A stretch of DNA of 32,446 nucleotides from Bacteroidales bacterium (lineage in GTDB: Bacteria > Bacteroidota > Bacteroidia > Bacteroidales > GCA-2748055), in NCBI GenBank assembly GCA_018400695.1, contig JAGYMF010000007.1:1-32446 (forward strand). Direction: 5' to 3'. The notes under the pieces were generated by a model. That model had not been told where the DNA came from and searched no databases. It saw only the letters and a list, made by a program, of their open reading frames with translations. Below are positions 1,173-31,767 of this stretch, in pieces. Positions within the stretch are counted from its first letter, which is position 1. Every line of letters starts with the position of its first letter. The position numbers and the translations under genes are program-made.

Positions 1173-2756
1173 ATGGCTCAGATCAAACCTTCAGAAGTAT
1201 CAGAAATACTTAAAAAACAACTTGAAGGATTTAAAAGTGATGTTGAACTTGAAGAGGTGGGTACGGTACTTCAGGTTGGCGATGGTATTGCGAGGATCTA
1301 TGGCTTGAACCGCGTTCAGGCAAATGAACTCATTGAATTTGACAGTGGTGTAAGGGGCATTGTACTGAACCTTGAAGAGGATAATGTAGGTGCCGTGTTG
1401 CTCGGTCCTTCAGAGAAGATCAAAGAGGGAGATACAGTCAAGCGGACAAAGCGGATTGCTTCTATCAAGGTAGGTGAGAAATTACTGGGCCGTGTGATCA
1501 ATACCCTTGGAGACCCCCTGGACGGTAAGGGGCCCATATCAGGTGAGCTTTACGAAATGCCAATGGAAAGGAAGGCTCCCGGGGTAATTTTCAGACAACC
1601 TGTGAATGAGCCTTTGCAAACGGGGATTAAATCGATCGATGCCATGATCCCTATTGGAAGGGGTCAGCGTGAGCTGATTATTGGTGACAGGCAGACCGGG
1701 AAGACTGCTATTGCTATTGATACGATACTTAATCAGAAGGAGTTTTTTGATAGGGGAGAGACGGTTTATTGTGTATATGTGGCGATCGGACAGAAAGGAA
1801 GTACCGTTGCCAATGTGCGCAACACGCTGGAGAAGAATGGTGCAATGGATTATACAGTGATCGTTTCAGCAACAGCGTCAGACCCTGCTGCACTTCAGTT
1901 TTATGCTCCTTTCGCAGGATGCACGATCGGTGAATATTTTCGGGATACGGGACGCCCGTCACTGATCATCTATGACGATCTGTCCAAACAAGCGGTCTCC
2001 TACAGAGAAGTGTCCCTTCTGCTAAGAAGGCCTCCGGGACGTGAAGCGTATCCAGGAGATGTCTTCTACCTTCATTCACGCTTGCTGGAAAGAGCCGCCA
2101 AGATCATCGAATCTGATGAGATCGCTGCCAAAATGAACGACCTGCCTGATTCCCTTAAACCGCTGGTTAAGGGAGGGGGTTCTCTGACAGCTCTTCCGAT
2201 CATTGAAACACAGGCCGGGGATGTTTCAGCCTATATTCCAACCAATGTGATCTCAATTACCGATGGACAGATCTTTCTGGAGCCAAACCTCTTTAATGCA
2301 GGAATCCGTCCTGCCATTAATGTCGGCATCTCAGTATCCAGAGTGGGAGGTAACGCGCAAATTAAGGCGATGAAAAAAATCGCCGGTACGCTGAAACTGG
2401 ATCAGGCGCAGTTTCGTGAACTGGAGGCGTTTGCCAAATTTGGATCTGACCTGGATGCAGCTACGAAGGCGGTACTCGATAAGGGTAGAAAGAACGTAGA
2501 GATCCTGAAGCAGGGTCAATATTCACCCTTTCCGGTGGAGAAACAAATCGCTATTATCTACTGTGGAACCAAAGGATTGTTGAAAGATATCAAAATCAGT
2601 CAGGTACAGCAGTTCCAGAAAGAATTCCTTGAATTCCTTGAGCTGAAACATAAAAACATCCTGAAGAAATTGTCGGAAGGAAAAATCGATGATGAGATAA
2701 CCAACGTTCTCGAATCTGTAGCCAAAGATATCGTGGAAGAATTATCAAACAACTAA
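1173..2756 (+). CDS. atpA: ATP synthase F1 subunit alpha
   Basis: 527 aa; Walker A GDRQTGKT; alpha signatures ([13 protein letters not shown]). Confidence 0.98.
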
Positions 2757-2788
2757 CCCTCAACTAAACTAAGCTCTCAATAATAAAA

Positions 2789-3676
2789 ATGGCTAACCTT
2801 AAAGAAATACGGGACCGAAGGGAATCAGTTGCTTCTACAAGGCAGATAACGAGTGCTATGAAAATGGTTGCTGCAGCAAAGTTGAAAAAGGCGCAGGATG
2901 CCATTGTCCAGTTAAGACCTTACGCTGATAAATTGCAGGAGATCCTGGGAAGTATTAGTGATAGTCTGAAAGGGGATGAGCAGAACATCTATGCGCAAAG
3001 CAGGGATGATGAGAATATACTGTTGGTGTTGATCACCTCAAACAGGGGTCTCTGTGGTGCATTTAACAGCAATGCTATCAAGGCATCCATCCATGCTGCA
3101 CTGGATACCTATTCTGACCAGATGATGGCCGGACAGGTCGATTTTCTGGCTATCGGAAAGAAAGGAGCCGATTTTCTTAAAAGGAATGGTTATAATGTCA
3201 TCTTCAATGGCAGTGAGATTTATGATGATCTCAGCTTTGAAAGATCGGTTGAAATATCAGAAATGGTGATGAAACTCTATGTTGCAGGTGATTATGACCA
3301 CGTGGATATTGTATATAACCAATTCAAAAATGCGGCGACCCAGATCCTGGCCATTGAGCAGTTCCTGCCCATAAAAATGGTGGAGCTGGCAGAAGAAGAG
3401 CCTTCCATGGTGCATACAGATTTTATTTTTGAGCCTACCAAGGAGTTTATTCTTAAAGAACTGATACCCAGGTCACTAAAACTTCAGTTTTATAAGGCAA
3501 CTATTGATTCTTTTGCATCTGAACATGGTGCGCGGATGACTGCCATGCATAAGGCAACCGATAATGCCACGGAAATGATGAAAGAGCTTGCCCTGGAATA
3601 CAACAAGGCCCGACAGGCGGCTATAACCAACGAGATTATCGAAATTGTGGGTGGTGCAGAGGCCCTGAATGGCTAA
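2789..3676 (+). CDS. atpG: ATP synthase F1 subunit gamma
   Basis: MANLKEIRDRRESVASTRQITSAMKMVAAAKLKKAQ and C-terminal RQAAITNEIIEIVGGAEAL. Confidence 0.97.
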   Translation: MANLKEIRDRRESVASTRQITSAMKMVAAAKLKKAQDAIVQLRPYADKLQEILGSISDSLKGDEQNIYAQSRDDENILLVLITSNRGLCGAFNSNAIKASIHAALDTYSDQMMAGQVDFLAIGKKGADFLKRNGYNVIFNGSEIYDDLSFERSVEISEMVMKLYVAGDYDHVDIVYNQFKNAATQILAIEQFLPIKMVELAEEEPSMVHTDFIFEPTKEFILKELIPRSLKLQFYKATIDSFASEHGARMTAMHKATDNATEMMKELALEYNKARQAAITNEIIEIVGGAEALNG

Positions 3677-23314: not shown

Positions 23315-23480
23315 TACGAAAAGAATAAAGATGTTAAGGCCACGAATTTAAGATTTTTTTGTTATCCGGCAGAGATAAAATTGATTAACTGATGATTGAT
23401 TTCCAGCTTTCCGGGCCTGGCAATGGAAGCTGACAGGTACGAATTTTATGTTAAAAATTGATGAATTCCACCAGGAACCA

Positions 23481-23488
23481 TATATTTG
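23481..23488 (+). promoter_or_regulatory. Putative promoter -7 element TATATTTG, with TTG at 23458-23460 as -33
   Basis: Exact TAnnTTTG match, 23 bp from TTG to TA, 23 bp before the ATG at 23512. Confidence 0.55.
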
Positions 23489-23511
23489 TACCTTCACTAA
23501 CTGAAAATGTG

Positions 23512-23862
23512 ATGGGCGCAAAAAATCTCCATTCTTCTGAAGAGGTGATCTATTCAACGTATCCGGAATTTGAATATGAATATGCCAACATTCATGAGCA
23601 AACCACACTGAAGCCTGAAGACCAGGAACTGATCATATCCCTGGAAAAACGGAAGATCGATGGCGCACCTGTAACAGTTATCAGCGGTTTTGTCGGGAAA
23701 CGGATGGACCTGATCTGTATCGGAGATAAACTGTCGGAGGTTTGCAGGACCGACGGTTCAACGCGGATGTATGAAATTATTCTGTTACGTGATGTGCGAA
23801 AAAGAGCTTATGTCTATCTTCGAAACAGTGGTTACAAAGTTCGGTTTGCGCTGGAGCATTAG
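23512..23862 (+). CDS. Divergent SUI1/eIF1-like (YciH-type) protein
   Basis: VIYSTYPEFEYE...ELIISLEKRKIDGAPVTVISGFVG...EIILLRDVRKRAYVYLRNSGYKVRF follows the bacterial SUI1 pattern; canonical Gly-rich/KDG segment replaced by CRTDGSTRMYEI. Tracked ORF starts at 23458 (TTG). Confidence 0.65.
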   Translation: MGAKNLHSSEEVIYSTYPEFEYEYANIHEQTTLKPEDQELIISLEKRKIDGAPVTVISGFVGKRMDLICIGDKLSEVCRTDGSTRMYEIILLRDVRKRAYVYLRNSGYKVRFALEH

Positions 23863-26746
23863 GAGGTTCGGAAATTCTTTCCGTTATCTGTATCATTTTC
23901 TGATTTTACTCTGCCTTTCGGCCTGGCAGGTAAATGGTATTGCACAGTTTTATGAATATGGACAAGACCGGGGGATGATCCGCTGGAACCAGTTTAATAG
24001 TGAGCATTACAAGATGATCTATCCATCGGGCCTCGACAGCCTGGTGATGAGTTTTGCCGATAAACTTGAATATTTCTATCCGCACCAGTCAGCTGTGCTC
24101 GACCATGAACACGGGTTGATGCCGGTTGTTATTCATAACGAATCCAGCTTTTCCAACGGTGTGTTTGTGTGGGCACCCAGGCGACTGGAGATCTTTACCA
24201 ATCCGGATCCCAATGGGTATCCGCAGGACTGGATGACACAGCTGGCGTTGCATGAAGGCAGGCATGCGGTGCAGGTTTCCAAGCTCGACCAGGGATTCAG
24301 CAGGGCATTATCTTTTATCGCCGGTGAGCAGGCCGTGGGAGCCATTACCGGTTTCCTGCCACTCTGGTATCTTGAGGGAGATGCAGTGGATGCCGAAACC
24401 CGGTTCTCATATACCGGCAGGGGCCGTCTTCCCTCCTTTGAGATGGGAATGAAAGCACTCCTGGTGGAAAAAGGACAGCGCTACCCCTTCTCCAAAGCAG
24501 TGCTGGGATCCTACAGGGATTATGTGCCTGACCATTATCAGCTCGGGTACCTGATGGTGCGCTATGGCCGTCGAACCTATGGTAACAGCTTCTGGACGGA
24601 CATGGAAGATTATGCGGCAACCAAACCCTATCTGTTGGTGCCTTCCCGTTTCAGCATGAAAAATTACGGTGTAGGATCAAAAAATGAGCTCTATAACAGC
24701 TCCCTGGATTTTTATGAAGCGCACTGGAGAAATACCAGTAAACAAAGAATTCCGGATAGTACCAGGCGCTGGAGCAGTGCAACGCATAAAGCCTATACCA
24801 ATTATCGTTTTCCGCAACCTGCCGGCGATTCTGCGATTGTTGCACTGAAAACAGGATTGGACCAGATTCCTGAATTTGTGGTTATCGGAGATGGTAGACG
24901 GGAACAGCGGATCTTTCGTCCGGGGTATCTGAATTCCGGACGGTTCAGTTATCACGGCGGACTGCTTGTCTGGGATGAGTGGATCCCGGATACCAGGTGG
25001 AGCAACAGAAATTTTTCTGTTATCAGGCTTTATGACATGGAGCGAAAACAGGTGAAGAGTTTGGGCAGGAAAACCAGGTATTATTCTCCTGCAATCTCCG
25101 GCGGTGGTGACCGGATCGCTGTGGTGGAGCAACGGAATGATCACACCTTTCATCTGGTCTTACTGGACCTGCAGGGCCGGATGGTCAGCACTGTAAGCTC
25201 CCCGGATGGCGTGTTCATGCAACACCCTGAATGGATGGCCAACGATACTGCCCTGGTCGTTACAGTAAACAATCAAAAAGGGGAGTCACTGTATAAGTAT
25301 TCCATCAAGGATGAGGAGTGGAGCCCGCTGTTTCATGCGGGATATCATGATATCTCTTTTCCGATGGTTGAAGAAAATCATATCTATTTCAATTCCACCT
25401 TTTCCGGAATTGACAATATCTACCGGTACAACCTGACAGATGGATCACTGTTTCGTGTGACGGAGGCAGCATTTGGTGCATTCGAACCTTCTGTTTCTGG
25501 TAAGCAGCTCTATTTTAGTGATTACCATGCAGATGGTTACCGTGCAGTCTCCATGTCCCTCCGCCCTGAAAATTTCAGGGAGGTGACTGTTTCCGGATTT
25601 CCGGCAGAACAGCAGGATGCGCAACCAACCCAACGGGAAAGGGAGATCATTGATGGAGCAACAGATGCTCCCGCCGGGGAATATACTTCCCGTCCCTACA
25701 GAAAATTTTTTAATGCCATCAATATTCATTCCTGGCTGCCACTCTATTTTGATTATATGAACCCTGAAGCAGCACTGACCCCTGAACAATTTCCCGTTAG
25801 CGCAGGCGCAACAATACTAACCCAGAACCTGCTGAGTACCGTGACAGGAATGATGGGTTATGAATACAGGGACAAGATGCATTTCCTTCATTCTGGTTTG
25901 CGGTTGAAGGGCCGTTTGCCGGTGTTTGATATAAGCCTTAATTACGGCGGTCCTCCGCAGGTCTACAGTATGAATAATACAGCGCCGGAACCTCCGCTGC
26001 CGGGTCGGCTGACATTCATCACGAACAGCCATATACCCCTGCGGCTGAATACGGGTAAATTTATTACGTATGTGCAGCCTTTTGTTTCCTATATGTATGC
26101 ATCAGATATCTATCCCAATGAGCAGCAGACTGATTATGAAACAGGTAACCACACCCTTTATTACAGGTTGTTCATGAGTACATATCTGCGCATGGGCAGG
26201 AAGGATATTATTCCCAGACTGGGTTTTGTGGCCTATGCCGGGTATAAACACGCCCCATTTAATGCCCATAACTTTGGAAGCCAGCGCGTTGCCGGTCTTA
26301 CGCTCTACCTTCCCGGATTATTGAAGCATCAATCTGCCCGCCTGCGTTTAATTTCGCAGAACCATGATCCTGAACGTTACCTGTTCGGCAATGAGATGCC
26401 GATGCCGCGTGGGTATAAATATATGACGGGAATGGACATGAAGTTATGGAGTGCAGATTATAATTTTCCCATTGTTTACCCCGACCTGAACCTTGAGGCC
26501 ATTCTCTATATCAAACGGATTCGGGGGAACCTGTGGATCGACTACCTTAATGGAAAGGATCTGCTCATCGAAAACAGCCATCCACGCTGGCAGGACAGGA
26601 ACTATACCTCATACGGTGCTGATCTTTTGTTTGATTTCCACCTGTTACGCTTCTTCTTCCCGCTTTCCATGGGAGCGAGGGTCGGTTATTTACCATTGAC
26701 GGAAGAATGGGTACCGGAGTTGCTATTTACCATCGATGTGAACTAA
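23771..26746 (+). CDS. Secreted protein: gluzincin-like peptidase region, TolB-like beta-propeller, probable C-terminal outer-membrane beta-barrel
   Basis: HEGRH zinc motif (24251-24265) plus WYLEGDA; propeller repeats (IYFNSTFSGIDNIYRYNLTDGSLFRVTE); C-terminal amphipathic strands. Start uncertain (23771, 23792 or TTG near 23847), overlaps the SUI1-like gene. Confidence 0.7.
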   Translation: MKLFCYVMCEKELMSIFETVVTKFGLRWSIRRFGNSFRYLYHFLILLCLSAWQVNGIAQFYEYGQDRGMIRWNQFNSEHYKMIYPSGLDSLVMSFADKLEYFYPHQSAVLDHEHGLMPVVIHNESSFSNGVFVWAPRRLEIFTNPDPNGYPQDWMTQLALHEGRHAVQVSKLDQGFSRALSFIAGEQAVGAITGFLPLWYLEGDAVDAETRFSYTGRGRLPSFEMGMKALLVEKGQRYPFSKAVLGSYRDYVPDHYQLGYLMVRYGRRTYGNSFWTDMEDYAATKPYLLVPSRFSMKNYGVGSKNELYNSSLDFYEAHWRNTSKQRIPDSTRRWSSATHKAYTNYRFPQPAGDSAIVALKTGLDQIPEFVVIGDGRREQRIFRPGYLNSGRFSYHGGLLVWDEWIPDTRWSNRNFSVIRLYDMERKQVKSLGRKTRYYSPAISGGGDRIAVVEQRNDHTFHLVLLDLQGRMVSTVSSPDGVFMQHPEWMANDTALVVTVNNQKGESLYKYSIKDEEWSPLFHAGYHDISFPMVEENHIYFNSTFSGIDNIYRYNLTDGSLFRVTEAAFGAFEPSVSGKQLYFSDYHADGYRAVSMSLRPENFREVTVSGFPAEQQDAQPTQREREIIDGATDAPAGEYTSRPYRKFFNAINIHSWLPLYFDYMNPEAALTPEQFPVSAGATILTQNLLSTVTGMMGYEYRDKMHFLHSGLRLKGRLPVFDISLNYGGPPQVYSMNNTAPEPPLPGRLTFITNSHIPLRLNTGKFITYVQPFVSYMYASDIYPNEQQTDYETGNHTLYYRLFMSTYLRMGRKDIIPRLGFVAYAGYKHAPFNAHNFGSQRVAGLTLYLPGLLKHQSARLRLISQNHDPERYLFGNEMPMPRGYKYMTGMDMKLWSADYNFPIVYPDLNLEAILYIKRIRGNLWIDYLNGKDLLIENSHPRWQDRNYTSYGADLLFDFHLLRFFFPLSMGARVGYLPLTEEWVPELLFTIDVN

Positions 26747-26753
26747 GAGCTAT

Positions 26754-27338
26754 TTAGTTTCCCGACCGGTACTCCTTGCTAATGGTAAAATAATCATGGT
26801 ACGGCAGCATGGTCGAACCAACTACGACAGAGGGTTTGATCTTGAGACTTAGCCGGGTAGGCTGACCGCCGGCATCAACCAGGTTGAGTGCAAAATTCAG
26901 CATGGTTCGCGGGCTGTCCCCTTCAAGATATTCAAAAAGGTCGGATTCGATTCTGACAGGAACGATGGCGGTGCCACCGTTGGGAAGGATCTCTACCCGC
27001 TGTTCGATTTTCCCTGATGAGATCTGCACATCATCAATGAAGGCAATCCACTCAATATGGTTCAATGCTGCTTTGGTGATGCCTGGATTCCTGACCTCGA
27101 TATTTGCAGTAATCCCGAATGGAAGCCGTTTCTGGAGAAGCTGGGAGGCGACCCGCTGCCCATCCATCAGGGTGAGGTCGCTGAACGACTGTACGCGCAT
27201 CACATCAATGCCAGCCACAACAGGATCCTGTGCCGAATGAAAGCTGAATTCGCATTTTGACAAGGCGGTCAGCTCCGATAGTATACTGCAACCTGAAAGC
27301 AGAGAGGAAAGAAGAACAAGGGTCCATATTTTTTTCAT
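26754..27338 (-). CDS. Lipoprotein, LEA type 2-like
   Basis: Lipobox LLSGC after MKKIWTLVLLSSLLSGC; LEA-like FGITANIEVRNPGITKAALNHIEWIAFID. Confidence 0.7.
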   Translation of the reverse strand: MKKIWTLVLLSSLLSGCSILSELTALSKCEFSFHSAQDPVVAGIDVMRVQSFSDLTLMDGQRVASQLLQKRLPFGITANIEVRNPGITKAALNHIEWIAFIDDVQISSGKIEQRVEILPNGGTAIVPVRIESDLFEYLEGDSPRTMLNFALNLVDAGGQPTRLSLKIKPSVVVGSTMLPYHDYFTISKEYRSGN

Positions 27339-27389
27339 GATCAGGAGTTTTCGTAATGATTTTTTATTTGTCTTATCTTCGTTATGTAA

Positions 27390-28217
27390 ATGTACAATAT
27401 TTCTTCATTCTGCGGAATGATCCTATTTTTGCATTACCAAATGGCAGATCTCTTTTCATACGGTCCCAGGAATATACGGGAGTTTTTTAAAACGAACCTT
27501 GTGGCTGTATTGTATACCATCATGCTTCATTTGGTAATCCTGATCATCCTGGTTATTGTCAAAACAGAGGGATTAAAAAATGACCGTGAGCTGGGGGTGT
27601 TGCTCGATTTTACTGAAGAGCAGACACTTGAGGAGTTGCTCAGGGAGGAGCAGATTGAAGTCCCCCCGGAATGGATCGATCAGGTATATGAAGCCCGGGA
27701 ACAGGCCAGCAACAGGGCAGTGAACCTGGAAGACCGAATAAAGGAGGATATTTCGACAGAAGACTATGTCAATGAGCTGCTTAATGAGTTGGAATCTCAG
27801 AAAGATGAAGACTTCCTGGAGAACAGGGAAAAATGGAAGGAGGTCATCTCCTCCTATGTTTACGAAGAGGAGGCTGTAGAACAAAAGCCTGTAGCTGACG
27901 AGGAGAAGGAGCCCTTTACCGGACCGACCACCATCACCTATGAATTCCTCGATCAGCCAAAAGACAGAAAACAGCGGATGCTTACCATTCCGGTGTACCG
28001 TTGTGAAGGATCAGCCCTTGTGGAAGTGCTGGTCACCGTACGCCGCAATGGTATGGTTGGAGATGTCGAAATCAGCAGTGTACAGTCAGCCGAAAACCCC
28101 TCCTGTTTTATTGAAGCGGCTGAAAATGCTGCACGCACTTCTGTTTTTTTCAGTGACTATAAGGGTCCGGAGAAGCAGCGGGCAAAAATCACTTATCAGT
28201 TTGTGGCGCAGCATTAA
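27390..28217 (+). CDS. TonB-like energy transducer (single TM, TonB-C-like end)
   Basis: TM VLYTIMLHLVILIILVIV, acidic linker, C-terminal ALVEVLVTVRRNGMVGDVEISSVQS...ENAARTSVFF. True start may be ATG at 27441. Confidence 0.6.
   Translation: MYNISSFCGMILFLHYQMADLFSYGPRNIREFFKTNLVAVLYTIMLHLVILIILVIVKTEGLKNDRELGVLLDFTEEQTLEELLREEQIEVPPEWIDQVYEAREQASNRAVNLEDRIKEDISTEDYVNELLNELESQKDEDFLENREKWKEVISSYVYEEEAVEQKPVADEEKEPFTGPTTITYEFLDQPKDRKQRMLTIPVYRCEGSALVEVLVTVRRNGMVGDVEISSVQSAENPSCFIEAAENAARTSVFFSDYKGPEKQRAKITYQFVAQH

Positions 28218-30231: not shown

Positions 30232-31767
<1,536 letters not shown>

Follow-up and report, generated by a model that had tools for sequence, protein, structure and literature searches.

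The window, a stretch of 32,446 nucleotides from a Bacteroidales bacterium, carries an open reading frame (ORF) on the forward strand that encodes a 991-residue protein. We assign the following features to this gene, each given with its position in the window, its strand and the evidence used.

23771-26746, forward: ORF of the 991-residue protein
23888-23944, forward: signal peptide, about residues 40-58 (LYHFLILLCLSAWQVNGIA), from the DNA and homologue N-termini; the exact start codon is uncertain
23945-24802, forward: predicted zinc-peptidase domain (Peptidase_MA/M9-like), residues 59-344, from conservation and profile matches
24251-24265, forward: HEGRH (HExRH), residues 161-165, predicted to supply two zinc-ligand histidines and the catalytic glutamate; invariant in 54 of 54 members and aligned to HEYTH of ColG
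24365-24397, forward: WYLEGDAVDAE, residues 199-209, with E202 the third zinc ligand by homology; family alignments show D204 and E209 to be invariant
24416-24427, forward: GRGR, residues 216-219, a near-invariant, family-specific motif in the 54-member alignment
24536-24538, forward: Y256, an invariant tyrosine and candidate active-site residue, which pairs with a tyrosine of ColG in alignments
24803-25600, forward: TolB-like beta-propeller, residues 345-610, from TIGR02800 and a profile comparison with the PDB
25601-25696, forward: variable linker, residues 611-642, with 18.5% mean identity and no invariant column
25697-26743, forward: putative Omp85-type barrel domain, residues 643-991, from residue alternation and profile comparison
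26405-26416, forward: PRGY, residues 879-882, matching the Omp85 loop-6 motif (x)RG(F/Y) in sequence and position

The gene and its surroundings

That a single chain joins a signal peptide, a zinc-peptidase domain, a propeller resembling TolB and a predicted barrel of the BamA type is confirmed as an observation, with each part assigned from sequence. The signal peptide proposed in an earlier note on this DNA is present. It lacks a lipobox cysteine, and in close homologues it ends in AQ and is followed by FYEYGQD. The start codon is uncertain because the in-frame ATGs near the beginning of the ORF fall within an upstream ORF (23458-23862), and because the stretch from residue 14 to the signal peptide contains no ATG, GTG or TTG. 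This upstream ORF, also on the forward strand, encodes 134 amino acids and overlaps the annotated start of the 23771-26746 ORF in the source genus. Its end resembles by eye a SUI1/YciH-type translation factor, and a Pfam match for it was not found.

A gene for a TMEM260-like protein O-mannosyltransferase (PF11028; 20285-23314, reverse strand) adjoins the gene. On its other side (26757-28214) are ORFs for a 194-residue lipoprotein-like product on the reverse strand and a 275-residue membrane protein on the forward strand, neither of which matches Pfam. The earlier note had proposed a search for conserved neighbours, and this search came out negative: the neighbourhood, including the genes just described, is kept essentially only within the taxonomic family of the window. 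Operon partners were rejected on this ground. Given that no conserved neighbour was found outside this family-level syntenic block, the protein looks self-contained. Elsewhere, genes for the alpha and gamma subunits of an F-type ATP synthase and for a V/A-type ATP synthase subunit (1173-3673 and 30235-31740) occur within the same 32-kb window.

A predicted gluzincin site

Both motifs named in the earlier note, LALHEGRHAVQ and WYLEGDA, are present, with the codon for H161 at position 24251 as stated there. In an alignment of 54 family members, residues H161, E162, R164, H165, E202, D204, E209, R217 and Y256 are invariant. The equivalents of H161, E162, H165 and E202 also stay invariant in a 36-member alignment that reaches down to 15% identity. 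The two motifs are thus not a matter of chance. Among the three domains, 21 of the 25 gap-free invariant columns sit in the peptidase domain, which also has the highest mean identity (42%, compared with 35% for the propeller and 32% for the barrel, each of which has two such columns).

The window protein itself has no match in Pfam. Distant homologues from the same phylum, which match the family profile with E values from 1e-95 to 1e-39, link it to known peptidases. Three of nine matched Peptidase_MA_2 just below the cut-off in a full-length scan, and 8 of 36 homologue domain slices matched it, the best at 1.1e-9. When the peptidase-domain profile was compared with the PDB, it found the clostridial collagenase ColG at an E value of 0.0024; like those to Peptidase_MA_2, this match is modest. 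In this alignment HExRH pairs with HEYTH, and W-x-x-EGDA pairs with WFDEGTA (within WFDEGTAEF), whose residues we take to be the zinc ligands of ColG from established knowledge of M9 enzymes. The downstream Tyr-x-x-Gly region aligns as well. An HExxH motif with a glutamate and a conserved tyrosine is the normal set of a peptidase. Thus, the gluzincin-type zinc site that the earlier note proposed is well supported, with E202 as its predicted third ligand, and the domain probably joins the Peptidase_MA/M9-collagenase (gluzincin) group.

The window's family differs from ColG and Peptidase_MA_2 in its HExRH, EGDA..ET and GRGR signatures, and we know of no propeller-barrel fusion in that group. Distant homologues L092-L099 carry the same propeller together with a plain Peptidase_MA site (HEFTH...WFAEGTAQY) that lacks D204, E209 and GRGR, and some of them show a clearer Omp85 motif (L099: GMRGYPFYSLGGN).

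A TolB-like propeller and a probable Omp85-type barrel

The propeller recognized earlier is confirmed by two comparisons. TIGR02800 covers residues 418-607 (E=6e-10), and a 26-member profile finds TolB structures in the PDB (E=1e-17). Judged from its length only, the propeller probably has six blades. The linker that follows is too short for a POTRA domain.

The alternating strands that the earlier note described in the C-terminal region are real, whereas the region spans about 350 residues rather than 300. Its two-residue alternation is strong (z=4.8, 17 peaks), in contrast to the peptidase and propeller domains, whose z-scores are negative. An Omp85-type barrel is expected to have 16 strands. 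When compared with a reference made by pooling BamA and TamL barrels of related genomes, the barrel profile of the family alone gives E=2.5e-5, and addition of distant homologues improves this to E=2.5e-7 with a probability of 93%, in an alignment that spans the last 83-86 columns rather than the whole barrel. Controls were not significant (0.06 for TonB-receptor, 0.05 for reversed), and the highest score among 40 block-shuffled versions of the narrower family alignment was 23.9, versus 47.1 for the real one. Matches of the family profile to the single references are weaker (0.09 for BamA alone, 0.001 for TamL alone). PRGY begins 113 residues from the C-terminal end, within the range of 109-123 residues at which RGY begins in the BamA-type proteins that related genomes encode. 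The sequences of several homologues finish with a typical beta-signal.

Neither a direct match of the window protein to Pfam Omp85 (PF01103) nor a match of the barrel profile to PDB sequences was found. A single-sequence AlphaFold model of the whole protein reached a pLDDT of 31. A two-sequence model of the C-terminal region, likewise of low confidence (pLDDT 45, pTM 0.42), has long strands. Its best Foldseek matches are mainly various kinds of outer-membrane barrel, with none at E<=0.001 and no preference for Omp85. The alternation supports the barrel that the earlier note proposed on the same chain as the peptidase, and the BamA/TamL profile match supports its Omp85 type. Compared with BamA and TamL, the protein would share the barrel end, whereas their POTRA domains are replaced by the peptidase and the propeller.

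An Omp85-type barrel preceded by a TolB-like propeller, with no POTRA domain, is the arrangement described for the WD40-Omp85 subfamily in the text of Heinz and Lithgow (2014; PMC4104836), where a role like that of BamA plus BamB is proposed. The window protein would therefore be placed with or next to this subfamily; the comparison was made with the text of that paper and does not prove that the two groups are the same. The text does not mention a peptidase for WD40-Omp85 proteins, which sets the window protein apart from the proteins described there, and the separate 'Metallo' Omp85 subfamily in the same text uses another domain, PF00149. The WD40-like Omp85 group has been termed not well characterised (PMC11116518), and our literature search for peptidase-propeller-Omp85 proteins found no paper that describes them. 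The earlier note could not assign a described function. This is now narrowed to the WD40-Omp85 subfamily (or a neighbour) and the Peptidase_MA/M9 group.

Distribution, location and proposed role

Full-length homologues of 930-1,000 amino acids occur in most close relatives and are patchy across the phylum. Matches were found in 45 of 61 genomes of close relatives. A sample spanning the phylum gave matches in 143 of 297 genomes, many of the weaker ones covering the propeller only, and in a sample spanning the class 25 of 158 genomes have the family. The source genome (~69% complete) has one copy. A scan of genome contigs with one query sequence returned one relative, and the viral contigs and plasmids searched held no homologue. 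The patchy distribution and the lack of conserved neighbours suggest an accessory, self-contained enzyme. A required link to type IX secretion was rejected, as SprA is near-universal (152 of the same 158 genomes) whereas the family is patchy, and one genome with a family member (G062) has no SprA match.

We consider it somewhat probable that the protein is a self-anchored outer-membrane zinc endopeptidase that cuts envelope proteins from the periplasmic side. The signal peptide would export the chain, and the C-terminal region would form an Omp85-type barrel inserted in the outer membrane. The propeller and the gluzincin peptidase would probably remain on the periplasmic side, where the propeller could hold or present substrates to the HExRH/E202 site. 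Cleavage of envelope proteins might then serve, for example, to clear or mature outer-membrane proteins, and outer-membrane quality control is perhaps the role. The likeness to BepA, an M48 peptidase at BAM, lies in the proposed task of a periplasmic zinc protease for outer-membrane proteins and is an analogy only, with BepA being a separate protein from another peptidase family.

The earlier note suggested a surface protease tethered to its own barrel. In such a reading the barrel would bring the peptidase and propeller to the cell surface, much as happens to a type V passenger, and external protein would be digested there. The peptidase does resemble secreted collagenases, and PlpD was formerly thought to be of a surface-passenger type, as the text of PMC4104836 relates. 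We find this location unlikely because those Omp85 proteins that have been studied keep their N-terminal domains in the periplasm; one of these is the patatin domain of PlpD, which is an enzyme (PMC11116518). PlpD likewise joins a catalytic domain to an Omp85 barrel, although its domain is a lipid hydrolase and it has POTRA rather than a propeller. Moreover, folded domains with a total of about 550 residues would need to pass through the membrane, the distribution of SprA gives no sign that type IX secretion is required, and nothing was found to indicate export of the peptidase.

Decidedly improbable is an assembly factor of the BamA-plus-BamB kind, as suggested in the text of PMC4104836 for WD40-Omp85 proteins, in which the HExxH domain would be structural or secondary. 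The Omp85-type barrel and TolB-resembling propeller agree with such a function, but the peptidase is the most conserved domain and its catalytic set is invariant. Furthermore, POTRA domains would not fit, and the patchy distribution speaks against a central part in assembling the outer membrane.

Most doubtful is a metal-dependent enzyme of other specificity on a gluzincin scaffold (for example a glycan or lipid hydrolase, or a special-substrate peptidase): the invariant R164, D204, E209 and R217 and the near-invariant GRGR are not general in Peptidase_MA, and R164, D204, E209 and GRGR, which are unusual for a general protease, may signal other chemistry, but the HExxH, glutamate and tyrosine form a normal peptidase set and the nearest solved relatives are peptidases.

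In the literature we found no characterised member of the WD40 branch of the Omp85 superfamily. The family described here is widespread in Bacteroidota, and its proteolytic activity is predicted from sequence. If the N-terminus is an active protease, then WD40-Omp85-type proteins would be enzymes rather than assembly factors like BamA plus BamB. We tentatively suggest that WD40-Omp85 proteins, or a sister class, might be outer-membrane-anchored zinc proteases, which would unite protease, substrate platform and barrel in one chain as a single-protein device for quality control or maturation of the outer membrane in Bacteroidota.
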